Source of the DNA: Papaver somniferum
Lineage: Eukaryota; Streptophyta; Magnoliopsida; Ranunculales; Papaveraceae
NCBI RefSeq assembly: GCF_003573695.1
Contig: NC_039358.1
Span: 195,943,323 to 196,007,322 of the forward strand
DNA length: 64,000 bases
Reading direction: 5' to 3'
Position numbers and translations under genes: made by a program. Each line of letters begins with the position of its first letter. Position 1 is the first letter of the stretch. Shown piece by piece: positions 8,587 to 60,175 of the stretch. Below the pieces are notes generated by a model. That model had not been told where the DNA came from. It worked only from the letters and a program-made list of their open reading frames with translations, and made no database searches.

Positions 8587-8728
8587 AAAAGCCAAATTAT
8601 TTTTTATCTTTGAATTTTTCTCTCTCATGCGAATTTTTCTCTCCAAAAAAATGGCGAATTTTTTCTTTAGGGTTTTCAACTTTCATTAACGTTTTTCCTT
8701 CATTCTAGATCATCTTTGGTGATTTAGG

Positions 8729-10921
8729 ATGGGGGAAAACCCTGATTCAAACGTGAATAATCATGGGAACAATAAGGTATCTTTTGCTGATCTGGTTAAG
8801 GGTAAAAAACCCTATATGTTAACAGATTCAGATTTCTTATCTCTCCCTGAGGCATCAACATATTTGGAAGAACCATCTTTGGTTTTTTCTAATAGTCTTC
8901 TTCAAGAGGGACGTGATATCATTGGGAGATTGAACTTTAAGGGCTTAAAACTTGCTTATGTTCAAAAGAGTTTGGAGGAACCGGTTTCGGTGCTGGAAGA
9001 TGTAAGTTAGTTCCAATGACAAAAGGGTTCTTCATCATAAAGTTAACTTCAGGAGATGACAAGGAACGTGTATGGCATGGTGATACTTGGGTCATACGGA
9101 ATCAACAGCTTAGTGTTTTCAATTTTTACCCAAATTTTGATCCGGAAAGACAACAAACTTCAACAGCTTCAGTTTGGGTAAGTTTCCCTGGTTTGTACAT
9201 TGAGTTATGGACTAAGAAAATTCTTCTTTCCATTGCTAAAATTATTGGAAAACCGATTGCTATTGATCAAAAGACATTGGATCATGATGTTGGAAACTAT
9301 GCTGCGGTTCTGATTGATATTGACTTTGCTAAGTTGATTCCTAGAAGAATTCGCTTGAAGGCAAATGGAAAAGAGTTCTGGCAGTATATTGAAATTCAAG
9401 ACTTAGAGAATGTCAAATTCTGCACTCATTGTAAGTTTATGGGCCACAAATTTGAGAATTTCCTTGCTGCAAAGAAAATTTTGGGAGGTTCTAATGCTGA
9501 AAAGAAGTCACCTACTGTGAACATTAAGAATGGCAAAGAAGGAAAATCAATCAAATCTGTTTGGAAAGAAGTTAGTGAAACTTCCCATGCAGGCCATGCA
9601 GTTAACGTCAATAATGTGCAGAGGCTGGTAAGGAGAGTATAAATTTAGTTCATGAGGTTGCTGTTCATGATGATATTGTGAAGTCTGGGAACGTGATTAT
9701 TGAATCAATTCATGAGAAGTCTGATGATAAACAACTAGAAGAGCAGCTCGAAAAAGCTTTTACTGAGTATCGTGAAGCTCAGATTAAGTTGATGAGATGT
9801 AAAAACAATATTTCAGCCAAAAAAGATCTTGCTTTACGTAATAATTCTGTCCATATTGACAATGCAGATAGTAGACAAGGGAACTCTAGCAAGCAAAGCC
9901 ATTCCCGGACTAATGAAACTACTCAGCAAGAGTCCGTGCAAACTAGGAAAGCTCAGCAAGAGTCCGTGCAAACTAGGGAAGCTCAGCAAGATTCCGTGCA
10001 AACTAGGGAAGCTCAGCAAGAGTCCGTGCAAATTTTGGGAGATCAGTCCGTGCAAACTTTTAAATCCCAGCAAGAGTCCGTGTCTAAAAAGAATTTGGAA
10101 CATATTCCAAATATTCAGTCTGTGACCAAGTATGATTCTGAGTTTATGACCGTGACTAATCCAAACTCAGTTACGGAAACTTCTTCAAATTCCGTGTCCA
10201 AGCTAAATCCAATGCCAAACTCTGTTATGGAAAAGGGTACGACCAGACCTGAGTTTATTTCTAAACCACGGACACCTAAAGAGGATTGGAAAATAGTTAT
10301 GGGTAAGAACTCCCCTAATAAAGGTACATCTTTTAAATTTAAATCTTTTGAAACTCCTTTTATGGATGAGCTTTTTCAAACTGAACTTGTGGTGAATAAC
10401 AAGTATGGTTCCCTAGCTTCTGAGTTAGGCCTTACTAATGATTCTAGTGAGGCTTTGGTAAAGGAGAAAAAAGCTGAGATCATTGCTATGAATTCAAAGT
10501 CTATTGAGGAAATTCGAAGCCGTGAGCATCACAAGGATATTCAAGCAGGGTTGGAGGAAAATGTTTTTGATCTAGATAATATTTTGTCTACAGAGGAACT
10601 AGATGAGGCAAGTACTATTCAACTTGAAGAAGTGCGTGCTAAATTCATTAGACATCCAGATTTTCGACGAGACTACTTAGAGGAAAAGAAGAAGAAAATG
10701 GATAGAATGTCAACAAAAAGAATGTTCAATCTCCTATTAAGCTTGTTCCAAGTGGTAATTATGCTTCAGATGAAAATGAACAGGATTATGACAATGATGA
10801 AACTTATGATGATTATGAAGATGAATTCAAAGAGCACTATGATTTGACTCAAATAATTGATGATTTCATTCCCAAGAAGAGGAATTTTAGAGTTGGAAAT
10901 AAGGGGCGAAAGCGATTTTGA
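8729..10921 (+). pseudogene. E1 ORF1, DUF4283/zinc-knuckle gag-like protein, frameshifted
   Basis: Start at the ATG in ggatgggggaaaacc, the same start as in E8 and near the equivalent one in L1/L2. Three open pieces in different frames (8729-9010, 9016-9642, 9678-10847) cover one ancestral ORF1 of about 720-770 codons. A small deletion removes the FQFSL-equivalent residues, and further indels lie near 8990, 9640 and 10725. The second piece holds the DUF4283-like region (KGFFIIKL, FNFYPNFDPE, ASVWVSFPGL) and a CX2CX4HX4C knuckle whose last Cys is Phe (CTHCKFMGHKFENF). The third is rich in Gln, Ser and Val with 30-bp repeats. The C-terminus, out of frame by then, encodes the SPIKLVPGGNYAS motif, an acidic stretch and a basic tail ending at 10921. 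ORF1 proteins of this type bind the element RNA. This copy cannot make the full protein. Confidence 0.88.
9921..10040 (+). repeat. Four 30-bp tandem repeats inside E1 ORF1
   Basis: Units at 9921, 9951, 9981 and 10011, each starting with gctcagcaag (first unit actcagcaag). They encode a ten-residue unit around QQESVQTREA. Single substitutions separate the first three units and the last third of the fourth diverges. E8 has only scattered SVSK-like motifs at the equivalent place, so the expansion looks specific to this lineage. Confidence 0.9.
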
Positions 10922-11015
10922 TTTTATTAGTTTTCTTCTTTATGCTATTTTTTAGTGCTTAAGAGCTTATTTTATGATTTTTTAGAGTTTTTTGCCCCTT
11001 TGGTTTATGGGGTGT

Positions 11016-11032
11016 GGAGGCCTACCGCCTCC
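11016..11032 (+). other. E1 3'-UTR hairpin
   Basis: GGAGGC, loop CTACC, GCCTCC, about 70 bp before the poly(A) end. The seventh pair found in relatives is lost here (T opposite C). The same position carries a hairpin in the other E elements. Confidence 0.65.
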
Positions 11033-11100
11033 CATTTTGTAATTCTTGTAATTACGTTTTTTTGCTTTAATAAACCATTTTGACCTAGCAAAAAACAAAA

Positions 11101-11690
11101 CAAATCCTAACAAATTGCATCCATCTTGAATCAAATAGAAAGACAAAGCTAACACAAGAAGAAAGAGTTCATAAATTATTGAATTTTATATATGTTAACT
11201 CAAAAAAGTCTACACACTTCGTTATAAGTCGGAAATTGATTTCTGAGACTAAATTGTAAACTAAATAAACTCATCTTTAACAGAAAAAGTTTAAAAAATG
11301 TATTGTAATTACAATTAATATGTTTTAAGGCAATACGTCTAGTAAAAATTGCATTTCTATGTAAGTTGATTCAAAAAAATATGAAGGAAGTCAAATTTCA
11401 CAATAGAAGAAAGATGAAAGATCATGCAGAACTAATCCAAATCCTAACAAACTTCATCGATCTTGAATCAACTAGAAAGACAAAGCCAACATAAAAAGAA
11501 AGAGTTCATAAAAAATGTTGAATTTTATATACGTTAACTCAAAAAATCTACACATTTCGTTATAAGTCGGAAATTGATTTCTGATACTAAATTTTAAACT
11601 AGATAAACTCCTCTTTAACAGAAAAAGTTTGAAAAATGTATTGTAATTACAATTAATATGTTCTAAGGCAATACGTCTAGTAAAAATTGC
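11101..11690 (+). repeat. Satellite between E1 and E2
   Basis: About 1.75 plus-oriented monomers. It begins with the right TSD of E1 (11101-11114) and ends with the left TSD of E2 (gtctagtaaaaattgc, 11675-11690). No gene. Confidence 0.95.
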
Positions 11691-11755
11691 TTTTTTTTTG
11701 CTAGGTCAAAATGGTTTATTAAAGCAAAAAAACGTAATTACAAGAATTACAAAGT

Positions 11756-11774
11756 GGGAGGCTCAAGGCCTCCC
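11756..11774 (-). other. E2 3'-UTR hairpin
   Basis: On the minus strand GGGAGGC, five-base loop, GCCTCCC: seven perfect pairs, about 60 bp before the element's 3' end. Confidence 0.7.
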
Positions 11775-11885
11775 CACCCCCATAAACCAAAGGGGAGAAA
11801 AAAATAACATCAAAAAAATTACTAGAAACTCATAAAATAAGCTCCTAAACTCAAATAACTAACAAAAAAGAAGAAAAATAGGAAC

Positions 11886-14088
11886 TTAACATCGTTTTCG
11901 CCCCTTTCCCACCTTAAAATTCTTCTTCTTAGGTTGGAGACCAGCAAGGATTTCCGCCAAAACATCAGTGTCTCCATAAAACTCATTATATTCATCATCA
12001 CAAGTATCATCATATTCATCTTCATCTGAAGCATAATTACCACCAGGAACAAGCTTAATAGGAGTTTGAGGTTTTTTCTTCTCTTTTTTTTCTTTGAAAT
12101 ACTCCTTTCTATAAGCTGGATTTCTAATAAAATTAGTCCGAACTTCATCATTCTTAATGGTGCCTACCTCTGCAAGCTCCTCTTCATTGAGAATATTTTC
12201 CGTCCTTTGTTGCCTTAGAGCTTCTAATCTATCAAGAAAAGCTTTCTTCTTTTCTGCATCAACAGTTTCAGTTGAGCTCTCAACTAAATCTGTAGCCTTT
12301 GAAACATTGCTATTCTTGTTTTCATTGTGATCACTAATCGTACCCCATTCAGTAGAATTTTTAACTTCAGCTGTAATATTAGCAGCAAGCAATTCAGCCT
12401 CTTCCTCATCTAAATCTTCAACAATACTTTGCTGAGCTTCCTCCAAATTAGCACCCTCAACGTCCTTTCTAAAACCCAATTCTAAACTTAACACTTCATA
12501 TGTATTTTTCCTAACTTTTTCAGAAGATTCAAGTAAAGCATCAGTTAGAGGCGTAAAAGAAAATTTTGTACCTTTCACTGGCGTCCAATTCTCATTAGAT
12601 GCCTTAGTAAACGTATTAGGGTTGGAAACTGACTTGTTTTCCAAATCAGACTTGGAAACGGACTTCTTGTTGGCCATGGACTTGTGAACCTCAGAGTTTT
12701 GCAAAGTCACGCACCTTTCTACCAAATTAGCCCCAGGCGTATTTTCCAAATTAGACGTTTCAGAATTTTGGTTGGACTTGGTTTCAGAATTCTGGTCTTG
12801 CACGGACTTGCCTTCACAAACGTTAGTTGTACCAATTTTGTCCCCGGTCATACCAGCTTCAACAGGCTTAGTCACAACTCCTTTACGTACATCAATAGCT
12901 TCCTTGGCTGCAATTGCGTTTTTGCACTTAATTAACCTGAATTGAGCCTCATGGAATTCTTTTGAAGAAATAGCAAGCTCATTCTCCAACTGTTCATTGC
13001 TAGATTGAACTGTAGCCTCAATTCTGTTATCATTAGTAACTCCAATAGTACTTGAATCTGAAGCACAAAGAATAGTTTCCTGATTTGCATGAGCTGCATG
13101 GGCTATTGCAGCCTTGTGCTTCTCAAAATATTGTTCAATTTGATTAGTATTACCATCCTCGCCCACACTAACTTCTGGTAAAACAACTTTAGATTTGATG
13201 TTCCATCTCATACCTTTTTTTTTTGCTAGGTAATTCCATCTCATACCAGCATTAGGATCATAACTACCCTTAAAAGTCTTCTCTCCCACGACTACTTGTT
13301 GTTGTTTCTCTTTGTTACCATCAATTTTAGTCGACTTCTTCTTCCATTCAGCTTCCGCATGACCAATAATATTACACTTTGAACAGAACTTTGGATATTT
13401 TTGAATATCAATATATTCCCAAAAATCTTTTCCACCTGAAGTTATATGAATTCTCTCTGGAATATGCTTAGAAAAATCAATATCAATTAAAACTAAAGCA
13501 TAAAACCCATAATCAAGTTGTAAAGTTTTTTCATCCACCACAATTGGATTACCTAGAATCTTACCAATTGAAAGCAAAGACTTTTCAGTCAAAAGCTCAA
13601 CCGGTAAATCTGGAAACATAACCCAAACAGCAGCATGTGAAGAACGCTGTTTGTTTGGGTTAAAACCTGGATACCAATCAATTAGCTTCAACAGTTGCAG
13701 TTGCAGCTAGAACATTGTGAATCTTCTCTTTATCTTCAGCATACGAAAGCATAACTATGAAGAAACCTTTAGCCATTGGAAGAAATTTAATCCGTTCAAG
13801 TTTCCATTGATCTAAAATTTGTTTCTTAACTTCAGAAAACGTCAAACCCGTGAAGTCTAATCTAGCAATAAAACTATGTTGAAATCTGATGCAACCCTCT
13901 TGAAACAAATCCAAAGGGATTTCTAACGCAGGTTCACCTTCTTTAAGAGTTAGATTAGGTAACTTGGAAAGATCAACAGATGTTGGAATTAGGGTTTTCT
14001 TTCCTTTGAGAATATCAGCAAAAGAACCATGACTACCATTAGGATTTTTAATCCCTGATGTTGTAGGGATTGATGATTCAATCATCAT
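11886..14088 (-). pseudogene. E2 ORF1, DUF4283/zinc-knuckle gag-like protein, one main frameshift
   Basis: Two open pieces, 136 codons (13678-14088, starting MMIESS) and 601 codons (11886-13691), overlap by 14 bp. The break falls inside the DUF4283-like region, just before a WYPGFNP motif. Downstream come the VWVMFPDLPVELLTEK segment, a knuckle CX2CX4H with Trp in place of the last Cys (CSKCNIIGHAEAEW), a Glu/Lys-rich coiled region (residues roughly 200-280 of the second piece), and a C-terminus shared with E8: FIRNPAYRKEYFK, PIKLVPGGNYAS, an acidic Asp/Glu/Tyr run, and the basic end KKKNFKVGKGRKR. It carries an in-frame 33-bp insertion described separately. Length and domain order match E8. 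The function is inferred as RNA-binding ORF1p of a non-autonomous LINE. Confidence 0.88.
13215..13233 (-). mobile_element. 19-bp LINE 3'-tail insertion inside E2 ORF1
   Basis: On the minus strand this is ttacctagc followed by ten A, matching the extreme 3' end of the E elements (gacctagc plus poly(A)). It is bounded by perfect 14-bp copies of ttccatctcatacc at 13201-13214 and 13234-13247. Insert plus duplication is 33 bp, so the frame is kept and the protein reads GMRWN-YLAKKK-GMRWN. The simplest reading is a target-primed insertion that stopped after copying about 9 nt beyond the poly(A). Confidence 0.85.
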
Positions 14089-14215
14089 AAACCAACCGTA
14101 GCTGATTTAGATGATCAAAACGTGAGAAAAATCAAAACCTAGGCGTGAAAAAAATTGGAAAAGAAAATCGCCCTTTAGAGAAAAAAAACGGATATAGCTC
14201 CCCAACTCCAAGATA

Positions 14216-14564
14216 GTCTAGTAAAAATTGCATTTCTATGTAAGTTGATTCAAGAAAATATGAAGGAAGTCAAATTTCTCAATAAAAGAAAGATGAAAGG
14301 CCATGCAGAACTAATCCAAATCCTAACAAATTTCATCTTCTTGAATCAAATAGAAAGACAAAGCTAACATAAAAAGAAAGAGTTCATATAAATGTTGAAT
14401 TTTATATACGTTAACTCAAAAAAGTCTACGCACTTCGTTATGAGTTGGAAATTGATTTCTGAGACTAAATTGTAAACTAGATAAATTCATCTTCAACAAA
14501 AAAAGTTTGAAAAATGTATTGTAATTACAATTAATATGTTCTAAGGCAATACGTCTAGTAAAAA
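14216..14564 (+). repeat. Satellite between E2 and L1
   Basis: About one plus-oriented monomer. Its first 16 bp are the right TSD of E2 and its last 12 bp (gtctagtaaaaa, 14553-14564) are the left TSD of L1. No gene. Confidence 0.94.
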
Positions 14565-14675
14565 GGTTGATTAATAAAAAACTTTTTTCTCTCTCCTATG
14601 CTCTGAGGCGAATTTTCCTTAGGGTTTTACAAACTTTTTTCATTCTTCCTCTCAATCATCTTTAGGTGATTTGAG

Positions 14676-16169
14676 ATGGGGGATCCACCTCAATCATCTA
14701 CTAATAGGTCTCTCTCTTATGCTGATCAGTTGAAAGGAAAACAACAACTTCCAACAACTCTATTGATCTCAAAACCTTGCCAACACCAACGTCAAAAGAA
14801 GGAAAGCCTGCTGTTGTTTTTCCTGAGGAGTTTTATTTAGAAGGTTGCGATATTTGGAAATTCAGTCTCATAGGCTTTTAGATCTTAAAGGGATCACTTT
14901 TCAAGAGGTGAAAAACGATTTGTTAAATCAATGGAAGTTAAGCCAAGATGTTGTTCAATTAATTCCTATGAGTAGAGGTTTCTTTACCATCAAGTTACGC
15001 ACGTAATCATCCAAAGATACGATTTTGAATGCTGAAGCTTGGTTTTTTAGAAACCAAAAGTTAAACCTAATTGAATGGTTTCCTGGTTTTGATGCTGAGA
15101 AGCAACGCACATCTCATGCTTCGGTGTGGGTGACTTTTCCAGGGTTACCATTGGAGTTTTGGACAGAAAAACGTTATTGTCTCTTGCAAAATCGTTAGGA
15201 ACTCCTATTGTGGTTGATAGAAGAACTCTTGAACATGAATATGGTCACTTTGCTTCAGTTTTGGTGGATATTGATTTTTCTGAAGCGGCTACTGATGCTA
15301 TACATATCACGGTGGGGGGTTTGGATTTTTGGCAAGCTGTTGCGATCCAAAAAATTCCAAAATATTGTTCCAAGTGCAAGCTAATTGGTCATAATGATAA
15401 GGAGTGTAGAAAACAATCCAAGGAAACTTCTGAGCGTCAACCTTTGGTTACCAATCAATCTCACGAAACTGGTGAAGCGCAACTTGTGATGAATAACAAG
15501 GTTGGTGGTGGATGGCAAGTTGCTAGGCGTAAGAAAAAAGGAAAAAAGAAGGATACAAACAGCTTGGAGGTTATTCATGATGATGAAGAAGCTTTTGTTG
15601 GGGACGTGGTTGATGAGGAGTTTGCTGCTAAGCTGGTGAAAGCTAAGCAGTTGGAGGCTGTTATGTCACAAGCCAAAGCTGATTTTGAATCTGTCTATGT
15701 TGAATTGTCGAGAACTAAACAAGCACAGGCTTCAAAATCAGCCGTATTATTGAATTGAAAAGTGGGTGAAACTAATCCTTCAAATATGACAAGTTTGGTT
15801 GGAACTAGGATTCCTAAACCTGTTAGGATTGTGACTTCAACTCCAACTCCTCTTTGTGATCAGCTCACGGCTGGGGAGTTTATATTGAATAACAATAAAT
15901 ATAGTGCTCTTAATTCTATGCAAGATGTGGAGGAAAGCACAGCTGATGCAAAGTTTAGGGCTGAACAAGAAGTAAAGAGAATACGCATGCTATCCATGCA
16001 TAAAATTGTGAATACTACAGCTGGGAGGAATACTTCTTTAGAACAAATTTCTGAATCCGCTTCTCTTCAGGACTCTAATGTCCGTGTTGGTGTTGAACAA
16101 GGAAGTTCACCAGGAGTGAACTCTGGCGTTGCTTCGGTAGTTGGTAAGGCCTCTAAATCTGGTTTTTAA
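14676..16169 (+). pseudogene. L1 ORF1, DUF4283/zinc-knuckle protein, several breaks
   Basis: ATG at 14676 (gagatgggggatcc) gives MGDPPQSS and SYADQLKGKQQLP, matching the L2 N-terminus, then loses frame near 14755. Stops and indels fill 14760-15120, including a taa at about 15006. From 15126 the frame is open: LLSLAKSLGTPIVVDRRT, then an intact knuckle CSKCKLIGHNDKEC, then a Lys-rich segment. A tga at 15756-15758 replaces the Gly codon seen in L2, with the same frame open again to 16169. A 5-A run at 15167-15171 carries a one-base loss also present in L2. The stop overlaps the ORF2 start as taATG. Role by family: RNA binding and chaperone function in the LINE RNP. Confidence 0.88.
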
Positions 16170-19100
16170 TGCGTGTTCTCTATTGGAACATTAATGGCAT
16201 TGCACGGGATGCAGCCAAAAATAAGTTAAGAGAGTTAATTCTTGAGTTTAAGCCAGATATTTTCTGTCTAGCTGAACCTAAGGTGCATTGTACCTTGCGT
16301 TTCTTGCACAAATTATATGTAGCTGGTTATAAGAAGGAAGTTATTCATAATTCTGTTGATTCGTCTAAAGGTAACATATGGATTTTTTGGTCCATTGACA
16401 TAGCTACGCCTGTAGTTATGAATACTAGTAGACAAGCTATTACCATTGCAACAGAGGGGGTGTTGGTGTCCTTTGTTCATGCTAGCTGTTTTCAAGTGAC
16501 GAGAAGAAGTTTGTGGCAACAAATTTCCTCAGTTGATATTAATACTCCTTGGTTGGTTATGGGTGATTTTAATTGTGTTCTTCGTAATGAGGAGAAAAAA
16601 GGAGGCAATCAACCACGTACTTCAGTCATCAATGATTTTAGTGATTGGATGGATGATAATAATCTTTTTGAAGCTGATTTTTTGGGTTCTAAATTCACTT
16701 GGTCTAATAGGCAATCTGGTGTTCATAGAATCCTTTGTAAGCTGGATAGAGTTTTGATTAATGAGGCATGGCTTATTAAGTATGAGAATTGGAGGTGTAA
16801 AGCTCTTCCCCGTGAAGTTTCCGACCATTCTACTCTTATTGGCTTTCCTTTTGTTAATACTAGACCGAAACGAGCTCCTTTTAGAGTTCAGAAGATGTGG
16901 TTTGCTCATTCTGATTTCATGAGAATGGTAAGTGATTGTTGGAATGCTCCGGTTACAGGATCTCCTGCTTTTATTTTTCTTTTCAAGCTCAAGAGGTTAA
17001 AAGCTGTTATGAAGGATTGGAATTTACATGTTTTTGGCAATATTTTTGCTAAACTAAAACAAGCTGAATTGACTATGGAAGTGGCTCTTCGTATTTCGGA
17101 TGAGGATCCAGAGGATATAACTAAGCTGAATTCGGCCAAGGAGGCTTCAGTTATTCTTCAGGAAATTCGTTCTCATCATGTTACTATGCTAAAGCAAAAA
17201 TCACGTAATAAATGGCTTTTGGAGGGAGCTAGTAATACTTCTTTCTTTCATGCTAATATCAGAATGCGCAGGAGTAGTAATATGATTTCGGAGTTGGTGG
17301 ATGATAATGGGGCTGTTATTACTGATTGTGATCAAATTAGAGACTATACGGTTTCTTTTTTTGAGTCAAAGTTTAATGGTGATGAGTTGCCTATTGATGA
17401 GGAGCTTTTTAATTATGATCATAACATCATCTCGGTGGAGGATAGTCAGAGAATGGATGAAATTCCTTCTATGGAGGAGATTAAGAATGTTGTTTTTGAT
17501 TTGGGTGCGGATAGTGCGTCAGGGCCGGATGCTGTTGGCAGCGGCAAATCATTCCTCATGGTGCTAATTCTAGTCTTATTATTCTTCTTGCCAAGGTTAG
17601 AGGAGCCAACACTCTTCGAAACTTTCGGCCTATTGGTCTTAGTAATTTTTTCTTTAAAATTTTTACTAAGATTTCAGCTACAAGACTAGGGAGTGTTCTT
17701 GATAATTTGGTTTCAGAAGAACAAGTTGCTTTCATGAAGGGGAGGAACATTCATGAAAACATTACTGTGGCGTCGGAGATGATCAATGATCTGAAAACCA
17801 AACGTAAGGATGGCAATTTGGGGTTGAAACTGGATATTACTCAAGCTTTTGACACGGTTAGTTGGTCATTTGTTTTAGAGGTTTTTCGAAGGTATGGTTT
17901 CTCTCAAAATTGGTGTTCTTGGATTTTGGCTATTCTTAACTCAGCAAGGATTTCTATTCTTCTTAATGGAAGTCCAGAGGGTTTCTTCAAAATCAATAGA
18001 GGTCTTCGGCAAGGTGATCCTTTATCTCCTCTTATTTTTGTTCTGATTGAAGATGTTCTTAGTAGAAATCTTACAAAGTTGTTTGCTGAGAAGATGATGA
18101 CGCCTATGCTTTCCAAAAGAGGTATTTCTCCCACACATCTTTTCTTTGCTGATGACATTATGATTTTTTGTAAAGGCAATATGAAGAGTCTGCATAACCT
18201 TCTTGCTTTGCTTGGTAAATACCAAACTACCTCGGGCCAAACTGTCTGTCGTCAAAAGAGTAAGATTTATTATGGTAGTGGTTCTTTGAGTCGCTGTGGG
18301 ACTATCACTAATTTACTGGGTATGGAAGTTACTACTTTTCCGGACAGGTATTTGGGAGTTCAAATTATGCCTGGAGCAGTTAAGTATCGTCACATTTGTA
18401 ATGTGATAGAGAAAATTAAGAATCAACTTTCGGTTTGGAAAGGTAAGTTACTTTGTTTTCAAGATAGAGTTGTTCTTATCAATTCAGTGATAGCGAGTTA
18501 TGCTATTCACAACATGGCGGTGTACAAATGGCCTAGAAAATTTGTTCAACAGGCTGAAAGAGTTATTCGTAATTTTCTTTGGTCGGGTGATGCTGAAGTT
18601 GCAAGGAAATTTGTTGTTGGATATCCAAAGGTTTGTTGTCCGTTGAAGGAAGGGGGTCTTGGTATAACCAGCATGGTTGTTACTAATAAGGCTCTTCTAA
18701 TGAAGCTATGGTGGAGTAATCGTTCTTCTAACAAGAAATGGGCTCGTTTCTTATGGGCGAAATTTACTACTAAGCAGGGTAGTATAAAGCTTTATGGGGT
18801 GAATTCTTCTATTGTGCCGGGCATGAAACTGATTCATTCTATTGTTGACAAGAATACCAAGGTTCTAATTGGGGACGGGAGGTCTACATCTCTTTATTTT
18901 GATGTTTGGTATGGTAATGAGTGTATTGCTGATATGCTTAATGAAACTGACTTGGAAAGAAATGTCAAGGTCAGTGATATTATTGTTAATAATGCTTGGA
19001 TGATGCAGGGAGATCATATTCAGAATTTGGTCCGTGCGGGTGTGGATCTTTCAAATTTGCCTTTGTTACAAGGAGGGAATGATTGTAGAGTTTGGATGCC

Positions 19101-20193
19101 GGAGATGAATGGCCACTTTTCAGTCTCTTCAGCAAAGAATATCATTAGAAGGGCGTATCCAAAATCAGCAATTTATGATCTTTTGTGGAGGAAAGAAATT
19201 CATCCCAAATTGGCTGCTCAGAATTGGAAGATATGTCGTGAGGTTTGTGCAACTCAAGACAAGATCAGGAGTAGATTCAAAGTTGAAATGGCCAACAAAT
19301 GTTACTTGTGCAACATGGAGGAAGAATCTTTGGAGCATATTATTTGGAGTTGTACGTTTGCAACTCAAATTTGGCAGTGGTGTTCAGGTTTGTTTAATCT
19401 AACACCTTATTATGATATTGTGAATTCATATAAATCAGCAAAGGGTAGAAGTAGAATTGTCAAGGATTTATGGCTTTTAGCTATTTTGGTGATTCGCTCG
19501 GAATTATGGCAAACAAGAAATATGGCATGTTTTCAGAATTCTTCTGTTAGCATTCATTTTTTTAAGAAGAGAGTGTTCTATTTGATTAGTGAATACGCTG
19601 GTCGTTTGAAGGGTTTCATGCATAATACTACAACGGCCTTGGATCTTTTGAACTTTTTCCGTGTGATGCATAGGAAGGTTAAGCAGGTTCAGCCAATTGA
19701 GTGCTTTTGGAGTCCGCCAAATAGGGATGAAATTATATTATGTTGTGATGGAGCATCCAAAGGAAATCCGGGTATAGCTGGAGCTGGTGTTGTGGTTCGT
19801 GATGCTGATTGTAATTTTTTGGGTGCTATGAGTATTGGTTTGGGTTCTACTACTAATTTCTTAGCTGAACTTTATGGTATTATTGTTGGTTTGGAGTGGG
19901 CTATGAAGTGGAATGTTAAAAGAGTGGTTGTACGTTATGATTCAATGGGAACAATTAAGACATTGACGGGTACAAATCTTCCTTGGTTTGTCAAGCACAG
20001 ATGGAGAAGAATACAAAACAATTATGACTCTATTCGCTTTGTTCATACTTATCGTGAGGCTAATTTTGCAGCAGACAAGATGGCTAAAAGGGAATGTTAT
20101 CTTCGTAATGGTGAAGGTTTAAATTATGATGAAAGGCCTGATTTCCTTTTGTCTTTAGAATTTCCTAATGTTGTTTATTTCAGATTCAAGTAG
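16169..20193 (+). pseudogene. L1 ORF2, endonuclease-reverse transcriptase-RNase H, one internal deletion
   Basis: The first piece (16169-17689) starts MRVLYWNINGIARD and contains the APE-type endonuclease: the Asn of WNIN, Glu of AEPKVH, Asp/Asn of GDFN and the SDH near the domain end. After GPD (about 17530) roughly 70 bp present in L2 is missing. This throws the frame and removes part of the N-terminal RT region. The second piece (17707-20193, 828 aa) keeps RT motifs LKLDITQAFD, QGDPLSPLIF and FADD (18145-18156), a zf-RVT region CYLC-X8-H-X4-C, and an RNase H with CDGASKG, AELYG, YDSMG and AADKMA, so the four acidic residues are in place. The copy is non-functional because of the deletion. 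Otherwise it is conserved and close to L2. Confidence 0.93.
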
Positions 20194-20206
20194 TTTGTAA
20201 GTTTTT

Positions 20207-20222
20207 GGGGTCTTCTGACCTC
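20207..20222 (+). other. L1 3'-UTR hairpin
   Basis: GGGGTC, loop TTCT, GACCTC (one G.T pair), 14 bp after the ORF2 stop. L2 has the same stem with loop TTAG. Confidence 0.6.
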
Positions 20223-20288
20223 TTTTCTTATGAACACTTTGTACATATTGGTTATTCATTAATACAACATGGATTTAGCAAAAAAAAA

Positions 20289-24111: not shown

Positions 24112-24205
24112 TTTCCTATTTCTCTTCTTTATGCTAATTTTTTAATGTTTAGGAGCTTATTTTATGAGTTTTTAGAGTTTTTTTCCTCTTTGGTTTATGG
24201 GGGTG

Positions 24206-28137: not shown

Positions 28138-28150
28138 AAAAACTTACAAA

Positions 28151-45042: not shown

Positions 45043-45105
45043 GTTTTAGGAGTTTTTTAGGGGTTTCTCTGATCCCTTTTCTCCTTCACCTATCTTGTAA
45101 ATATC
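44010..45105 (+). mobile_element. L3: 3' part of a third, more divergent LINE
   Basis: Contains the end of ORF2 and a 3' UTR with an aggggt...atccct hairpin (about 45058-45075), which parallels those of L1 and L2. The usual end (gatttagc plus poly(A)) is absent: after tcttgtaaatatc the sequence goes straight into a minus-strand LINE end. It differs from L1/L2 at many positions, so it represents another family. The flanking satellite shares only ttgaa on both sides (43752-43756 and 45137-45141). Confidence 0.85.
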
Positions 45106-45136
45106 TTTTTTTTTGCTAGGTCAAAATGGTTTATTA
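45106..45136 (-). mobile_element. 31-bp E-type LINE 3' end
   Basis: On the minus strand taataaaccattttgaccta then gc and nine A: the exact 3' terminus of the E elements. It sits between the L3 3' UTR and satellite with its poly(A) facing L3. No target duplication is visible, so it may be a minimal insertion or part of a chimeric insertion with L3. Confidence 0.8.
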
Positions 45137-48209: not shown

Positions 48210-48420
48210 TAATAGTACTGAGAGTTTTATAATGTTCTCACGTGTGTCTGAGTGTGTGAGAAATGACTCTCATTGGCTGAGTGTGAGCTGTCTACAGCCT
48301 GTCCTGTTCTAACATCTCTTGTCTTAGTCAGGACATGTATAAATGCAGGTCTTTCTTGCTTTTAGTGTGTAAGAAAGAAATCAGTTTCTTGTTTTTGATC
48401 AATTAGTGAAAGTACTATTG
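48210..48420 (+). repeat. 5' LTR of the copia element
   Basis: 211 bp, pairing with 55370-55581. It starts taatagtactgag and ends agtactattg, so the termini are not the usual TG...CA. tagtact at the start mirrors agtacta at the 3' LTR end as an inverted repeat. A likely promoter TATA box, tataaat, lies at 48338-48344, in the second half of the LTR. Confidence 0.92.
48338..48344 (+). promoter_or_regulatory. Putative LTR TATA box
   Basis: tataaat within gacatgtataaatgcagg, the only TATA-like motif in the LTR and in the expected place. The copy in the 3' LTR is identical. Promoter activity is inferred. Confidence 0.55.
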
Positions 48421-48430
48421 TGGTATCAGA
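48421..48430 (+). promoter_or_regulatory. Primer-binding site, initiator tRNA-Met
   Basis: tggtatcaga directly after the 5' LTR, the standard plant copia primer-binding core complementary to the 3' end of initiator tRNA-Met. Pairing stops after ten bases (tgaagc follows). Confidence 0.85.
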
Positions 48431-48592
48431 TGAAGCTTCCGCAATCGCCATTAATGGCATTCAACCTATCAACCAATTTTCAGATCTAATTTATTCAATT
48501 CAATCAAAACTTTAATCAACCATCTTACTTCAATTCAATCTTTCAATCTACTTTCATCACTTTTATACACAATTTTCTTGTTTGTTCTTTCA

Positions 48593-49723
48593 ATGGCAGC
48601 ATATGAATCAAGAATTTCTCAAGTTCCTCTTAATCAAATCTCACAAATTCTCAGTTACAAACTCAAGGATGACAATTTCCTCACCTGGAAATCACTTCTT
48701 CTACCACTTCTGCGTCGATACAGAGTCAATGGTTTTCTTGATGGATCTTTACCATGTCCACCTTATCTGCTTAATAATGGCGTGAATCCTGGTTATACAG
48801 CTTGGCATGATGATGATACTACTCTTGTACTCTGGATTCAGATGTCTATCTCTGAATCTGTAATTCCATATGTTGTTGGAGCTGATTCTTCAAAAGATTT
48901 ATGGGACAATATTGATTCTAGGTATGCAAGAAGCTCTTCTACACATTCAATTCAACTTCGTCTCAAACTTCAATCCACAAAACTTGGGTCAGGTACTGTT
49001 TCTACCTTCCTAAGTGAAATCAAGAAAATAACAGATGAATTGTTTGCTGCTGGTTCACAAATTCATGATGATGAATTGGTAGTTACTATACTCAATGGGT
49101 TAGGCCAAAATTATAGTTCTTTTTGTACATCTATTCGTATTCGCAATCCACCAATATCATCAAAGGAACTTCATAATCTGCTTCTTACTGAAGAAATAGT
49201 TGTTACAAATAAGCAAAAGAACTTACTTACTGAGGCCAATTCAAAGGCGTTTGCTGCTACAAGACCTTTTGTTCAAAATTATAGAGGTAGTGGTAGAGGT
49301 TATCATTACTCTTCAAGACCTGCAGTTCCTTACTCTGGATACATCAGACCACCCCCATCTTTTTATCCAAGAGGTTATTCTCAATTTCAGATGCATTCTG
49401 CTTCTTCATCAACACCATCACCTCATTTCAATCCAAGACCTCACTATAGTTCAGCTCCTTCTTCTTCTGCTCCACCACCAATAACTGACAGGATTTGTCA
49501 GATCTGCAACAAAACTGGTCATCTTTCTTTGGAATGCAGACACAGATTGAATTTTGCCTATCAGAACAACTATACACCTCACAATCTCAGTGCCATGCTT
49601 GCTACTGCCAATATCATGGGTGAAAATCCTTGGTATGCTGACTCTGGAGCAAATAGTCATATCACTAATGATGAATCTGAATTACCTGAAGCAACATCTT
49701 TTGAAGGGGCAGATGAGATTCAA
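48593..49723 (+). pseudogene. Copia gag and start of protease, cut by LINE insertion
   Basis: The ATG at 48593 (MAAYESRISQ) is the first Met; upstream codons in the frame do not include ATG. The UBN2-type gag core runs over residues about 15-200 (DDNFLTWKSLLLPLLRRY, VSTFLSEIKKITDEL, ILNGLGQNYSSF). A Ser/Pro/Tyr-rich linker follows, then a CCHC knuckle CQICNKTGHLSLEC and the protease start with the catalytic motif DSGA (WYADSGANSH). The frame is open up to the insertion at 49723, and the rest of the protease resumes at 52365. Gag forms the particle and binds RNA. Confidence 0.93.
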
Positions 49724-49789
49724 TTTTTTTTTTGCTAGGTCAAAATGGTTTATTAAAGCAAAAAAACGTAATTACAAGAATTACAAAAT

Positions 49790-49808
49790 GGGAGGCTCTA
49801 GGCCTCCC
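49790..49808 (-). other. E8 3'-UTR hairpin
   Basis: Minus strand GGGAGGC, loop CTAGA, GCCTCCC, seven perfect pairs. Compared with E5/E7 the loop-closing pair is C-G instead of T-A. Confidence 0.72.
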
Positions 49809-49898
49809 CACCCCCATAAACCAAAGGGGCAAAAAAAAAGAAAACTCTAAAAAACTCCTAAACATTAAAAAGTTAGCATAAAGAAGAGAACTAGTAAA

Positions 49899-52224
49899 TT
49901 AAAAACGTTTTCGTCTTCCAACTCTAAAATTCTTCTTCCTGGGAATGAGATCATCAATTATTTTAGTCAAATCATAGGGATCCTTGTATTCCTCTTCATA
50001 AACATCATACCCATAATCCTCTTCATTTTCCTCTGAAGCATAATTACCACCCGGAACAAGCTTAATAGGAGATTGAGCTTTCTTCTTAGTTGACATTCTA
50101 TCCATTTTCTCTTGTTTATCCTTGAAATAATCTTTTCTAAAAGCTGGATCTCTAATGAATTTAGCATGCACTTCATCAATCTTAATAGTACTTGCCTCCT
50201 CTAGTTCCTCCATAGACAAAATATTACCCATATCAAAAACATTTTCTTCCAACCCTGCTTGAATATCCTTGTTATGCTCACGGCTTGGACTTTTCTCATT
50301 AGACTTTGAATTAATAGTCATGATCTTGTCAGCTTGCTTGGCCACTTTTCTAGCTTGCTTCCTGGCTAGAATATCTGCATCAACTTCACCCCAATCTTTC
50401 GAACCCATACTATTATCTGAATCACTAGAATCATCTTGTTCCTCCTCCACCCAAACCTCACTAGAATCATTAGCAAGGCCTAACTCAGATTCTAGAGCAC
50501 CATACTTGTTATTCACCACTAAATCTTTTTGAGAAAGCTCATTCACAAAAGGAGTTTCAAAAAATTTAAATTTAAAAGGAGTACCTTTGTTTGGGGAACT
50601 CTTACTCTTTACTGTTTTCCAATCATCTTCTTTTGTATCAGACTCCTTGGAAACTCCCGTATTTTGCTTGATAGAAACTGAATTATGCACGGTTTTGTTT
50701 TCCAATGAAGAATTTGAATTGGCCACGGACACAGTTTGAACCAAAACATCGTTATTAGCTCCCAAACTGGATTTTGTGTTGGATACAGACTTATCCATGT
50801 TCGTATTTTGCTTGGACATCCCAGAAGTTTGCTTGGTCACGGACAGGATTTTCTAAATTCTTCTTGGTCACGGACTGTATAGTATTCACGGAAGAATCCA
50901 AATTGTGCTTGGACACGGAAACTTGCTGAGTTCCCAAATTTTGTACGTTCTCTTGATAGGTATTTGATTTATGCACAGACTTTGGAGTTGCATTCAAGCC
51001 CTGAGAATTAGCTTGCTTGGACACGGAAGTTCCCAAATTTTGCACGGACTGAGAATTGTTTTTCTCTGGCGGAACATCTGCATGAACTGAATTGTCACGT
51101 GCAGCAAGATCTTTTCTGGCTGCAATTTTGTTTTTACATTTTATCAATTTCATCTGTGCTTCACGATACTCAGTGAAAGCTTTGTCGAGCTGGTCCTCCA
51201 ACTGACTATCTTCAACATTCTCTTGAACTGGATCAATGTTTTGTATAGACATAGTTGATGCGGCATCTATCAAATTTTCCTTCCCGGACTGAACATTATC
51301 TCTTGCAACAACAATATCTTCACTGACTTTATTTGCATGCTCTTCATGGGAATTTTTCCGCACTTCCTTCCAAACAAATTTGGATGTTTTATCCACTTTA
51401 CCATCTTTGATACTCTCACTAGAAGATTTCTTTTCAGCAGTAGAACCTCCTAATATTTTACGAGCAGCAAGGCAATTTTCAAATTTATGGCCCATAAACT
51501 TGCAGTGAGTACAATACTTGATGCTCTCTAAATCCTGAATTTCAATATACTGCCAGAACTCCTTTCCATTTGCTTTCAAGCGAATTCTTTTAGGAATCAA
51601 CTTAGCAAAGTCAATATCAATCAAAACAGCAGCATAGTTTCCAACATCATGATCCAAAGTCTTTTGATCAATAGCAATCGGTTTCCTAATAATTTTAGCA
51701 ATGGAAATAAGAATTTTCTTTGTCCATAACTCAATGTATAAACCAGGGAAACTTACCCAAACTGATGCTCGTGTAGTATGTCGTCTTTCCGGATCAAAGT
51801 TTGGGTAAAAATTGAAAACCCTAAGTTGTTGATTTTGAATCACCCAAGTTTCACCATGCCATACACGTTCCTTGTCTTCCGCTGAAGTTAATTTTATAAT
51901 GAAAAATCCCTTTGTCATTGGAACTAGCTTGCATCTACCAGCACCAAAACCCCATTGTTCTTCCAAGCTTTTTTGAACATCAGCAAGTTTTAAACCCTTA
52001 AAGTTCAATCTCCCAATGAGACTGAACTGAAAAACATCACGTCCCTCTTGAGTAAGATCAGTAGGCAAATCCAACGCTGGTTCGTCAAGATATGTTGATG
52101 CCTCAGGAAGAGATAATAAATCTGAATCTTTTAACATATATGGTTTTTTACCCTTAACCAAATCAGCAAAAGATATCTTATTGTTCCCATGATTATTCAC
52201 GTTTGAATCAGGGTTTTCCCCCAT
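49899..52224 (-). pseudogene. E8 ORF1, DUF4283/zinc-knuckle protein, one frameshift
   Basis: Two pieces, 477 codons from 52224 (MGENPDSNVNNHG) and 313 codons ending at 49899, overlap at 50791-50840, so a single indel separates them from an ORF of about 770 codons. Residues about 60-150 form the DUF4283-like region (SLIGRLNFKG, MTKGFFIIKLTS, FNFYPNFDPE), then ASVWVSFPGLYIELWTKK, then an intact knuckle CX2CX4HX4C at 238-251. A Lys/Glu coiled stretch around 350-390 (QLDKAFTEYREAQMKLIKC) and a Ser/Val/Gln-rich linker follow. The C-terminus has FIRDPAFRKDYFKDK, SPIKLVPGGNYAS, an acidic Asp/Glu/Tyr run and the basic RKKNFRVGRRKRF. It is the best-preserved ORF1 of the E group. Confidence 0.93.
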
Positions 52225-52364
52225 CCTAAATCACCAAAGATGATCTAGAATGAAGGAAAAACGTTGATGAAAACCCTAAAGAAAAAATTCGCCAATTTTT
52301 GGAGAGAAAAATTCGCATGAGAGAGAAAAAAAAATATCAAGTTTTGTTTGCAGATGAGATTCAA

Positions 52365-55300
52365 GCTGCTAATGGAGAAGGTATGCCAATTACTCATATT
52401 GGTCATGTGTCTAAAACAACTTCCTCTCATTCTTTTAATCTAAACAATGTGCTTCTTGTTCCAAAATCATCTCAAAACTTATTATCAGTGCATAAATTCA
52501 CTAGTGATAACAACTGTTCTATCACCTTTGATTCTATTGGTTTTGTTGTTAAGGATTACTCAACTGGGAGGATCATTTTACAAGGACCACATAAAGGAGG
52601 ATTATATCCAGTAAATTTTGCCAAGTCTACTAAGAATAAAGCTTTCTTTAGCAACAATAATTCAGCTTCAGTTTGGCATCAAAGGTTGGTTCATCCTTCT
52701 TTTCAAGTACTTCAAAAAGTGTGCAGAGATATGCAACTGTCTAGTTTAGTCAAAACACCACTATTTTGTAATGAATGTCATCTAGGGAAAAGTCATACAT
52801 TGCCTTTTACTTTATCTTCACATAGCGCTCAATCTCCACTAGAACTAGTGCATATGGTTTATGGGGTCCTAGTCCTGTAATCTCTTCAAGTGGTTTCAGA
52901 TATTATGTCAATCTCATAGATGACTATTCAAGATTTTGTTGGATATTTCCTTTGTCTGAAAAGTCTGAATTCAAAGACATTTTTCTACATTTCAAATCTA
53001 TGACTGAAAAGTTACTACATACTTCAATTGTTAAAATCAGAACTGATGGAGGAGGGGAATTCTTAAATAATGCACTACAAGAATTTATTAGTATACATGG
53101 AATTATTCATGAGGTTTCTTGCCCTCATAGACATCTTGTAGACACAGGGAGAACTTTTTTTAATTCAATCAGGTCTCTCAGAAAATTTTTGGGTTGATTC
53201 TTTTCATACAACCAATTATGTTATTAATAGACTGCCTGTTAGAAGTTTGGATTACTTATCTCGTTTTGAAAAGTTGTTTGGTCAGAAACCAGATTATTCC
53301 TTCTTCAGATCCTTTGGTTCATCATGCTTTCCATGGATAAGGCCTTACACTACACATAAACTCCAACCAAGGAGTGTACACTGTGTTTTTATTGGTTACA
53401 GTTCTATGCACAAAGGATATAGATGTTTAGATATTAAAACAGGGAAAGTATATATCTCCAGACATGTAGTATTTAATGAGACTTTCTTCCCATTGAGATC
53501 TTCAGATACATTACTTCCTGGCATTGCAAATTCTCCAGCACCAACTGATATTGCTTCTACAGCTCCATTTGTCAAGATTTCTGCACCAACACCTGCAACA
53601 TCAACCTCACCAGCTGCATCCATTGATACTTTATCTACTGATCCTTCAAACATTGTTAAGTCATCTGATGCATCCACTACAACTATTTCTGAACATACTT
53701 CAGCTTCTGGTATTCCTTCACTGGCTAATTCACACTCCATGGTAACAAGGGGTAATTTTAAACCCAAAGTTTTTAATACAAAGTATGTTCTATCAGCCAA
53801 TCTTACTTCTGATATTCCACCACCCACACCTACTTGTTATTCTAAGGCAAATAGAATACCTCAATGGAAACATTCTATGGAAGAAGAACATACAGCCCTT
53901 AAGGATGCAGGCACATATACACTTGTTGCACCAGATCCATGCTATAATGTTGTAGGCTGTAAGTGGGTGTTTAGAATCAAATATAAGGCTGATGGTTCTT
54001 TAGATAAATGTAAATCTAGACTGGTGGCCAAAGGGTTTCATCAACAAGAAGGAATTGACTACACAGAAACCTTTAGTCATGTAGCCAAACCAACAACTAT
54101 TAGACTAATCATTTCATTGGAAGTTCACTTCAACTGGGAAATGAAACAATTAGATGTTAGTAATGCCTTTTTACATAGGGATTTAGCTGAAGATGTCTAT
54201 ATGCAACAACCTCCAGGCTTTGTTGATCAAACCAAGCCTCATTATGTATGTAAACTTCATAAATCCATATATGGTCTGAAGCAAGCTCCCAGAGCTTGGT
54301 ATGATAAATTGCTACAAATTCTTCTCACTCATGACTTCAAACCCTCCTTAGCAGATGCTTCCTTATTTGTTCAAAAGTTTGGCTCAAGGATTACAGTTCT
54401 TCTGGTCTATGTAGATGACATTATTATCACTGGGAATTCAACTGAGTATATTCTCAGTTTATCAATCACCTTAAGACATACTTTCCCATAAAAGACTTGG
54501 GCTCTCTTCATTATTTTCTTGGTCTTCAGGTGAAAAGAAATTCAGACAACCTTTTTCTTAGTCAAACTAAGTATGCCTTGGACTTATTGGAGAAATTCAA
54601 TATGACTGGTGCTAAACCCTTTGGTACACCAGTCTCCCTCTCTACTTCACTCACTGCTTCAGCTGGTACTCCATTAGCAGATCCAAGTGAATACAGATCA
54701 TTAGTGGGTGCTCTACAATATCTTACTTGGACATGGCCTGAAATTGGTTTTGCTGTGAATCAGGTATGTCTTTATATGCAAGCTCCCACTGATCAACACT
54801 TTATTGCAGCCAAGAGAATTCTAAGATACATCAAAGGCACCCTAGATTATGGTATACTGTTTTCCAAAGGTCTTCTTACACTACATGGCTTTAGTGATGC
54901 TGACTGGGCAGGATCAATTGATACAAGAAGATCTACATGAGGCTTTTGTATATTTTTTGGTCCTAATCCAATTTCATGGTCTAGCAAAAGACAAGGTGGT
55001 GTTTCAAGAAGTTCCACTGAATCAGAATACAGGTCTCTAGCCAATACCACAGCTGAAATTGTTTGGGTTTTTCAGCTACTCAAAGATCTTCATCTCTTGC
55101 TTCCTGCTCCACCATTGATATCTTGTGACAATCAAAGTGCGGTTTCTCTGTCATCTAATCCAGTATTTCATAGTAAAATGAAACACCTGACCAATGATTA
55201 TCATTTTGTCAGAGAACTTGTCCAGAACAAAAACATTCAGGTCACATACATTTCAACTTGGGATCAAATTGATGATATTCTCACCAAGGGACTGGCAGGA

Positions 55301-55372
55301 CCAAGGTTTTCTACACTCAGAGACAAGCTGAAGGTAATCTCTAGTAACAACCTCCAGCTTGAGGGGGGCTAA
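52365..55372 (+). pseudogene. Copia pol: integrase, reverse transcriptase, RNase H, several lesions
   Basis: Continues the protease frame (AANGEGMPI). The pre-integrase zinc region WHQRLVHPS...CNECHLGK is present. A frameshift near 52855 destroys the first catalytic Asp segment. RTDGGGEF keeps the second Asp, and at about 53128 CPH joins RHLVDTG directly, so the NGxxERK segment with the catalytic Glu is gone. A further shift lies near 53165-53205. RT spans 53247 to about 54490, with KCKSRLVAKGFHQ, QLDVSNAFLHRDL and the core YVDDI. A base lost at 54487 and a tga at 54938-54940 (Ser codon in relatives) break the end. RNase H shows SDADWAGS, STESEYRSL, CDNQSAV and DDILTKGL. The stop taa at 55370-55372 is the first three bases of the 3' LTR. 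Confidence 0.93.
55361..55369 (+). promoter_or_regulatory. Polypurine tract
   Basis: gaggggggc immediately before the 3' LTR; plus-strand DNA synthesis starts at this tract in the family. Confidence 0.82.
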
Positions 55373-55581
55373 TAGTACTGAGAGTTTTAGAATGTTCTCA
55401 CGTGTGTCTGAGTGTGTGAGAAATGACTCCTCATTGGCTAAGTGTGAGCTGTCTACAGCTTGTCCTGTTCTAACATCTCTTGTCTTAGTCAGGACATGTA
55501 TAAATGCAGGTCTGTCTTGCTTTTAGTGTGTAAGAAAGAAATAAATTTCTTGTTTTTGATCAATTAGTGAAAGTACTACTA
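55370..55581 (+). repeat. 3' LTR of the copia element
   Basis: 212 bp, starting taatagtact and ending agtactacta, followed by the caacg duplication. It is one base longer than the 5' LTR (cctcattgg for ctcattgg), with scattered substitutions. Confidence 0.92.
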
Positions 55582-58541: not shown

Positions 58542-58605
58542 TTTTTTTTTGATAGGTCAAAATGGTTTATTAAGCAAAAAAAGGTAATTACAAGAATTAC
58601 AAAAA

Positions 58606-58624
58606 GGGAGGCTCAAGGCCTCCC
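58606..58624 (-). other. E10 3'-UTR hairpin
   Basis: Minus strand GGGAGGC, loop CTTGA, GCCTCCC, seven perfect pairs, same place as in E8. Confidence 0.7.
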
Positions 58625-58726
58625 CTCCCCCATAAACCAAAGGGGAGATAAATAACATCAAAATAGCTAACAAAATAAGCTCCTAAACACAAATAACTAA
58701 CAAAAAGAAGGAAACTAGGATTATCA

Positions 58727-60168
58727 TCAAGTTCCTCCACCTCTTTCTTTGTTCTTATTTTTCGCATTTGGAGTCTTCATTCTTTTGGATTGAGCTTGTA
58801 TTTCCTTTAAATACTCCTTTCGGAAAGATAAATCCTTCAAAAACTTTTGTTGAATATCAAATTTTGTTATTGAACAAAAAACTTCCTCCTCCTCCGTGGT
58901 TACGCGTATAGAAGTACTTTCCACAGACCCAGCACCACTGTCCGTGCTTTGATTGTTATTGGGCTTATGTAAAAGCCCAATATTTCCATTGTGATCCTCA
59001 CGTGCAATGTCATGTCTTGTATTCGCCCTATTGTTATGCTGTTGCAGTAAATGCGCAGCATTAGAACTTCCAGGCTTACGAGAACTTCCTTCTGATCGCC
59101 CTTTTGCTATCTCTATCTTCTTGTCCAAAGGAAGCTCATCCCACTTCTTACCTTTAACCTCCGAGGCTGCTTGTGCAACTGAAAAATTTTCATCTGAACT
59201 TGAATCACTTTTAACATCATCAACATTCTCATTTAAACCTTCCTCATTCTCAAGCACACTAAATTTGTTAGGAGATAAAACTACTCCAGAATTGGTTGGT
59301 TGCTCAGCAGAAGTTGTTTGCTTAGCCGGTTTAGTGGAATTCTTAGAAGAAGCATACTCTAACGCAGCCTGCTTAGTTTTCCAATCCTCAGTTGCCTTGC
59401 GTAAATCATCTTCAGCTTTTGCTAAGGTATCTTCCAGTTGTTTGATTGACTCCAAAACATTCTCCTCATCATTCAGCACAACAATAGTTGTTTCAGCATC
59501 ATTATAATTTGATTCAATATTTTGTTTACCTGAATTTCTATGTTTCACTTCTTTCCAGACTTGTTTTGCAAGCTTCTCTGTACGTACCAGTTGTATCTCA
59601 ACCTCCTCACCAGCTATAGCATTCACCCCTTCACCTTGCGTTGTAACCCCAATGCCAGCATCAATAGTTGCAACTAACTCCTTCTCCTTTCCTTTTGAGG
59701 TTTCATCAGGTTCCGGCTTCCACTTGCATTCACTTTCATTGTGCCAATAATGTTACAATGTAGGCAAAATTTAGGATGCTTCGGAATCTCTACATATTTC
59801 CAAAAAGTCCTACCTCCAGCCGTAAGTAGAATTCTACTAGGAATGTGTTTTGCAAAATCTACATCAACTAGGATTGACGCATAACTGCCAATCTCTAAAT
59901 TTAGGGTTCTTTGGTCTACCACAATCGGATTACCAACAGCTTTCCCTATTGATAACAATGATCTCTCCGTCCAAAATTCTGCATGAAGCCCCGGAAGATG
60001 AAACCATACAGCTGCATGGGAAGTAGTTTGTCTTTCTGGATCAAACCCTGGGTAGCACTCCATCAAACGCAACTCCTGTTGATTCACAAACCACTTCTTG
60101 TTACGGATTCTATCCTTTGTTTGTTCATCACGCAACATAACAACAAAGAAATCCTTACTCATAGACAT
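58727..60168 (-). pseudogene. E10 ORF1, truncated and frameshifted
   Basis: The upstream piece reads from satellite into MSKDFFVVMLRDEQTKD and continues through ECYPGFDPERQTTSHAAVW, FHLPGLHAEFWTERSLLSIGK and the first half of a knuckle (CLHCNIIG). A base is lost inside the knuckle, so its His and last Cys fall out of frame and the piece stops at 59674. The second piece (58727-59626) has Glu/Lys-rich helices (QLEDTLAKAEDDLRKATED), KWDELPLDKKIEIAKGRSEG, and a C-terminal KFDIQQKFLKDLSFRKEYLKE motif equivalent to FIRDPAFRKDYFK of E8. It ends KNKERGGGT without the acidic/basic tail of E8. The Met at 60258 is satellite and not the true start. Confidence 0.87.
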
Positions 60169-60175
60169 AATCCTA

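Follow-up and report, generated by a model that had tools for sequence, protein, structure and literature searches.

The closest described systems are found in mammals and in plants. Mammalian HAL1 elements encode only the protein of the first open reading frame (ORF1p) of a long interspersed nuclear element (LINE), carry poly(A) and target duplications, depend on LINE reverse transcriptase (RT) and endonuclease (EN) and have several origins (PMC5753468, PMC5322556). Among plant LINEs, Celine is concentrated in centromeres (PMC11288735), and a conserved 3' stem-loop has been proposed as the RT recognition signal for maize ZmSINE2 and ZmSINE3 and an L1-clade LINE (PMC3747384). No plant family of ORF1-only LINEs is named in the titles and opening lines of abstracts of the papers surveyed on HAL1, half-L1, DUF4283 and plant or non-autonomous non-LTR (non-long-terminal-repeat) LINEs, a survey comprising few subscription papers and no Repbase search, and the novelty of such a family is provisional. 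Here we analyze the elements E1, E2 and E8, found in a stretch of 64,000 nucleotides of the Papaver somniferum genome (C1:195.94-196.01 Mb of the assembly, hereafter the window). They are very probably members of a long-lived non-autonomous LINE lineage encoding ORF1p only.

As in HAL1, the E elements are ORF1-only, have neither EN nor RT between leader and poly(A) and are bordered by target duplications. They differ from HAL1 in their ORF1, a DUF4283 protein with a zinc knuckle, in their plant host, in a conserved 3' tail bearing a hairpin and in their regional clustering. The ORF1 of HAL1 belongs to the mammalian L1 ORF1p family. The parallel with HAL1 drawn in the initial annotation of the window is thus fair as an analogy, whereas membership in HAL1 fails, the E ORF1 being a DUF4283 protein. 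With Celine and other two-ORF plant LINEs, E has the DUF4283 ORF1 in common; Celine possesses both ORFs, whereas the ORF2 with EN and RT that characterizes autonomous plant DUF4283 LINEs is missing from E. A conserved 3' stem-loop tail is common to ZmSINE2/3 and E, which differs by its protein-coding ORF1 and by the fact that no LINE with a matching tail was found.

Structure of the E elements in the window

The window consists of 337-339 bp satellite repeats in an array interrupted by inserts, among which the following belong to the E type:

8587-11100, + strand: E1, ORF1-only LINE, full length, with leader, broken DUF4283 ORF1, 3' untranslated region (UTR) and poly(A); exact 14-bp target duplications CAAATCCTAACAAA at 8573-8586 and 11101-11114
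11691-14215, - strand: E2, ORF1-only LINE of a second, diverged subfamily; exact 16-bp target duplications GTCTAGTAAAAATTGC at 11675-11690 and 14216-14231
49724-52349, - strand: E8, ORF1-only LINE of the E1/E8 subfamily, inside a Ty1-copia element; exact 15-bp target duplications GCAGATGAGATTCAA at 49709-49723 and 52350-52364
58545-60175, - strand: E10, 5'-truncated ORF1-only copy of a third subfamily
60405-61051, + strand: E11, inverted segmental duplicate of the 3' part of E10 and its flank

E1, E2 and E8 share one layout in which a leader is followed by a DUF4283 ORF1, a 3' UTR and a short poly(A). Their boundaries, their exact duplications and the absence of EN and RT stand as initially annotated; the 720-770 codons given for ORF1 are a span and not an intact frame, ORF1 being broken in all three copies. 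E1, E8 and E10 score above the Pfam cut-off for DUF4283; for E2, the tested frame contains only the end of the domain and scores 17.6 bits, below the cut-off of 27.2. Neither EN nor RT was found by Pfam in the E frames scanned, where DUF4283 was the only match at E <= 0.01. As a chance control, random position pairs in this repetitive window reached a duplication of 12 bp in 41 of 3000 cases, in a run allowing less slack (3 bases vs 10). In nested repeats the duplication finder also gives false pairs, such as a 14-bp pair beside the true 17-bp pair at locus L017.

The division into subfamilies stands insofar as E2 is deeply diverged from E8. E10 and E11, initially counted as two copies of a third subfamily, represent one insertion: E11 was ruled out as an independent event since it is an inverted duplicate of the E10 3' end and flank (96.4% over 1011 bp). 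The possible target duplication of E10 measures only 6 bp.

Genome-wide size class and census of the 3' tail

The genome searched comprises 2.715 Gb in 34,283 contigs. A search with E8 yielded 74 matches from the 40 scored of 2087 candidates, and among them 15 near-full-length relatives (E8 included) span 2502-2684 bp at 89-100% identity. The full-length relatives start in a similar leader. No match to the ORF2 of the two-ORF LINEs of the window (L type, described below) was found in any of the 15 near-full-length copies, the element and 1.5 kb flanks being considered. Nine of these copies carry duplications of at least 12 bp (range overall 12-17 bp); two pairs among the nine have one duplication in common and count as segmental copies, so that the independent events number seven, all ending at the same 3' position. 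The length check proposed in the initial annotation therefore returned a 2.50-2.68 kb class with common 3' ends and no ORF2. In 4 of the 15 copies a frame of 732-793 codons, measured stop to stop within the element, remains open, and three of these four reach the usual C-terminus.

Two E copies (L017, L019) are inserted in other E copies of the same family, and the matches to the host copy resume on the far side. Such nesting bears on the alternative in which a host gene, domesticated from a LINE ORF1, gave rise to the E copies as processed pseudogenes. Several copies are indeed annotated as uncharacterized Papaver somniferum proteins, and processed pseudogenes also carry poly(A) and duplications; nevertheless, three diverged subfamilies, a similar leader start, about a thousand tails and E-in-E insertions point to a replicating lineage, and we regard a pseudogene origin as very unlikely.

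The E 3' tail is nearly invariant and consists of a hairpin, AATAAA and GACCTAGC-poly(A). A 28-mer from it, allowing up to 2 mismatches, has 1067 matches in the genome, whereas its reversed control has 0. Over the final 105 nt, identity is 94-96% for pairs of E1, E2 and E8 and 90% for E1 with E10, far above that of the coding parts, and it drops off upstream; in ORF1, synonymous divergence (dS) between E2 and E8 reaches about 1.5-1.8. The hairpin sequence GGGGAGGCCTTGAGCCTCCC is matched by 67 of 70 distinct 110-nt tails in a loose test (up to 6 substitutions), and five distinct tails show a paired change from C-G to T-A.

A census of what lies upstream of the tail covered 40 regions drawn from the first 100 exact 28-mer matches listed, on four contigs. 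Thirty-six were judged; one region without the tail (L052) and three that were too short (L062, L067, L076) were left out. E ORF1 lies directly upstream in 29 of the 36, six stop inside the 3' UTR and the last is L072, so that all 30 tails reaching coding sequence carry E ORF1. No ORF2-bearing parent was found among the 36. L072 was ruled out as a case of an E copy with ORF2: the ORF1 end and tail of an E2-like element are inserted in an L-type ORF2, which resumes past the E tail. As a control, 9 of 17 other DUF4283 loci yielded an ORF2 downstream, at 25-38% identity. The contrary case named at the outset, a majority of E-type tails carrying ORF2, was thus not seen in this sample (0/36, one copy being inserted in an L-type ORF2). 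If the 30 are independent, ORF2-bearing parents are estimated at no more than about a tenth of coding-reaching tails; duplicates may be among them, and an exact-tail census does not reach parents whose tails are altered.

Selection on ORF1, descent and a possible partner

Along three parts of ORF1, the ratio of nonsynonymous to synonymous substitution (dN/dS) between E1 and E8 is 0.16 (210 codons), 0.36 (207) and 0.56 (151), at dS of 0.53-0.81; for E8-E2 it is 0.31-0.40. The L3-L7 pair of two-ORF LINEs gives 0.51 for the ORF1 part and 0.12 for ORF2. Such values indicate purifying selection on E ORF1 between subfamilies and, if the absence of ORF2 is ancestral to E1 and E8, that E ORF1 would have evolved as a protein without it. 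The E lineage combines insertions of target-primed type, a narrow full-length size class, E-tailed copies that, as far as examined, have no ORF2, and selection on ORF1. The proposal that ORF1-only structure is a lasting lineage and not one deletion is supported by the size class, by the census and by dN/dS of 0.16-0.56 between subfamilies.

The two-ORF elements to which E can be compared are the following:

14565-20288, + strand: L3, two-ORF LINE with ORF1, EN, RT and RNase H; target duplication GTCTAGTAAAAA
28056-33859, - strand: L7, two-ORF LINE, 82-85% identical to L3; target duplication AATTGTAAACTAGATA

Unlike the E frames, L3 and L7 match Exo_endo_phos (EN), RVT_1 (RT) and zf-RVT in Pfam; the L3 ORF1 is called DUF4283-like from its similarity to the E and L7 ORF1s. 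Their tails fold into a hairpin different from that of E. The leaders of E8 and L3 are 80% identical over 80 nt, and E ORF1s are about 39-53% identical to L ORF1 around DUF4283, one 38-residue piece standing at 32%; this similarity of leader and ORF1 argues that E and L descend from a common ancestor. A C-terminal extension of ORF1 is present in E1, E2 and E8, shorter in E10 and absent in L3, L7 and protein P0018; part of it also occurs in proteins P0002 and P0011. A zinc knuckle, CX2CX4HX4C, is visible in the E ORF1 consensus. The predicted structure of the N-terminal frame of E8 ORF1 is poor overall (mean pLDDT, a predicted local confidence score, of 59), and the best-ranked matches of this model in the PDB are mostly tandem RNA recognition motifs, with a Cas6 at the top and none reaching E 0.001.

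An E2-type relative (P0017) annotated in Papaver atlanticum was placed in the ORF1 tree. In the tree with an outgroup, E2/E10 group with L and not with E1/E8 (support 82/78); imposing E monophyly costs 1.8 log units, and the approximately unbiased test gives p-AU 0.20. The wider tree of 21 ORF1s shows E monophyly with weak support (82/79). The tree comparison initially suggested as a check therefore neither establishes nor rejects a single origin of E. The grouping of E2/E10 with L is what would be expected if E copies were products of internal deletion or premature polyadenylation made repeatedly from different two-ORF LINEs, and ORF1-only structure most likely arose more than once in this genome. 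Against such repeated deletion, the E subfamilies share their 3' end, their tail and a C-terminal extension that the sampled L ORF1s lack, selection on ORF1 was maintained between E1 and E8, and none of the 36 E-tailed copies bears ORF2; we consider it unlikely.

How an ORF1-only lineage may propagate can be outlined. E RNA would be transcribed from its own leader and translated into an ORF1p comprising DUF4283, the zinc knuckle, a long predicted helix (perhaps a coiled coil) and the E-specific C-terminal extension. This protein would bind E RNA, which the EN and RT of a two-ORF L1-clade LINE would copy in trans from the poly(A). The donor is most plausibly of L3/L7 type, by leader and ORF1 the nearest two-ORF relatives sampled, and the nearly invariant tail is probably the handle by which RT takes E RNA. 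Conservation of the tail would follow either from recognition by RT or from its exchange among subfamilies. E might alternatively be one half of a split two-part LINE, with RT supplied by an ORF2-only element with a related tail. The absence of ORF2 from sampled E-tailed copies does require RT to come from elsewhere; yet no ORF2-only element turned up, no dedicated search having been made, and the two-ORF L elements present would suffice, which renders a split LINE extremely unlikely.

Several observations weigh against a non-autonomous ORF1-only lineage. An L-type ORF2 lies within 1.5 kb of 4 of 30 loci, all of them partial E copies (L024, L030, L031, L032). At L024, L031 and L032 it is on the opposite strand; at L030 it occurs on both strands, beyond an E copy without its 3' end. 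We tentatively read these ORF2s as neighbours and not parents. The census comprises 36 of 1067 tails, exact matches only, from four contigs and not all independent insertions. No ORF2 element with an E tail was found in the sampled tails and, with no autonomous element of this kind at hand, the partner is a guess. The near-identity of the tails could stem from exchange between subfamilies instead of selection. Finally, a single clade of E1/E8, E2 and E10 relative to L appears with weak support in one ORF1 tree and is missing from another.

Should ORF1-only LINEs prove recurrent in plants, as they are in mammals, dropping RT while keeping ORF1p would be a repeatable parasitic strategy. ORF1p would then serve its own RNA even with RT in trans, a point that natural E/L pairs make testable. 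Such elements may also lie behind part of the DUF4283 'host genes' in plant genome annotations.

A second ORF1-only clade, chromosomal distribution and further inserts

Seventeen other DUF4283 loci with at least about 3 kb downstream of the domain start were inspected. They are not a random sample, comprising nine of the first 12 DUF4283 hits, those ranked 13-17 and three loci picked for the length of their frames. A same-strand ORF2 lies downstream at nine loci and is missing at eight; as for the remaining three of the first 12 hits, L005 and L008 have ORF2 downstream and L004 has RNase H on the opposite strand only. Three of the eight loci without ORF2 are closed by duplications and the other five are not; in shuffled loci, under similar but not identical settings, a pair of at least 12 bp arose in 1 of 220 trials. 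The closed elements are:

C10:99.02 Mb (L007, L083): ORF1-only, 2134 bp, 14-bp duplication, about 622 codons with one stop
C5:193.8 Mb (L089, L091): ORF1-only, about 2.0 kb, 15-bp duplication, 574 open codons stop to stop
C30411 (L090, L092): ORF1-only, about 2.3 kb, 16-bp duplication, 579 open codons

These elements belong to a DUF4283 clade distant from E, and the leaders of all three have the word GATGACGTG in common. A locus at C9:28.08 Mb is 84% identical to the C10 element over 1704 bp, up to its 3' end, and one at C11:21.9 Mb is 79-82% identical to C30411 in pieces ending near the ORF1 end, the matching not covering the 3' part. The tree of 21 ORF1s rejects a grouping of all nine ORF1-only rows in one clade (p-AU 0.0005), and its starred branches require two changes or more; C9:28.08 and C11:21.9, two of these rows, are labelled ORF1-only solely for want of a downstream ORF2. 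ORF1-only LINEs therefore most likely arose at least twice in the Papaver somniferum genome. Separately, L084/L094 (C1:197.26 Mb), L089 (C5:193.8 Mb) and L098 (C11:5.76 Mb) resemble one another at 82-92% over short 3' segments (52-67 nt), with no other DNA similarity reported for one pair, a hint of tails common to different families.

The E tails are unevenly distributed. The 48 of the 100 listed exact tails that fall on C1 occupy 9 of the roughly 249 1-Mb bins (43.7 on average at random), the 29 on C4 occupy 6 bins and the 17 on C3 occupy 11, as few bins being obtained in 0 of 5000 random draws in each case; for the six on C5, clustering is not clear (360/5000). As a control, 44 DUF4283 hits on the same contigs spread over 43 bins, and 2 of 13 such hits on C1 lie inside E clusters; this control consists of DUF4283 hits only, distant relatives of E. 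Satellite adjoins the element at 8 of 39 E-tail loci, within short flanks. Segmental duplication contributes to the clustering, and regional targeting of E elements is put forward as a hypothesis. A broader proposal, to which we lend tentative and limited credence, would be that ORF1-only LINEs form a recurrent, long-lived plant class (at least two distant DUF4283 lineages in one species) and that the C-terminal extension and fixed tail let E capture the RT of two-ORF elements while concentrating in a few, partly satellite-rich, possibly centromeric regions. At C1:107.24 Mb, a copy 99% identical to E8 and bordered by almost the same duplication (L010) marks a segment common to two places 89 Mb apart.

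Further inserts of E and L type occur in the window:

23887-24284, + strand: 5'-truncated E8-type 3' end, 398 bp
25739-26136 and 27257-27655: tandem segmental copies of the preceding
24495-24593, - strand: 5'-truncated E tail, 99 bp; similar copy at 26349-26446
43757-45136, + strand: L-type ORF2 fragment, cut inside its own 3' UTR, between satellite repeats

The copies at 25739 and 27257 were ruled out as independent insertions, being tandem duplicates of one insertion (the first pair is 97.7% identical over 1704 bp and the second 96.2% over 1421 bp). The L-type fragment forms a head-on junction with 22 nt of E tail and poly(A) on the - strand and is possibly part of a twin-priming chimera of two different RNAs; the insert fits a meeting of E and L RNAs, and a nested insertion with deletion would look identical.

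The element interrupted by E8 (48230-55581) is named Ty1-copia from a reading of its sequence and has terminal repeats with 96.8% identity over 188 nt. At a substitution rate of 7e-9 per site per year its insertion would be about 2-2.5 million years old, and E8, lying inside it, is younger. Beside the inverted duplication of E10/E11 (60180-61051), the orientation of the satellite flips. Within E2 (13201-13247), a 19-nt insertion on the - strand, made of ten T and about 6 nt of E-type tail and bordered by a perfect 14-bp duplication TTCCATCTCATACC, is a retroposition that copied almost nothing beyond the tail.

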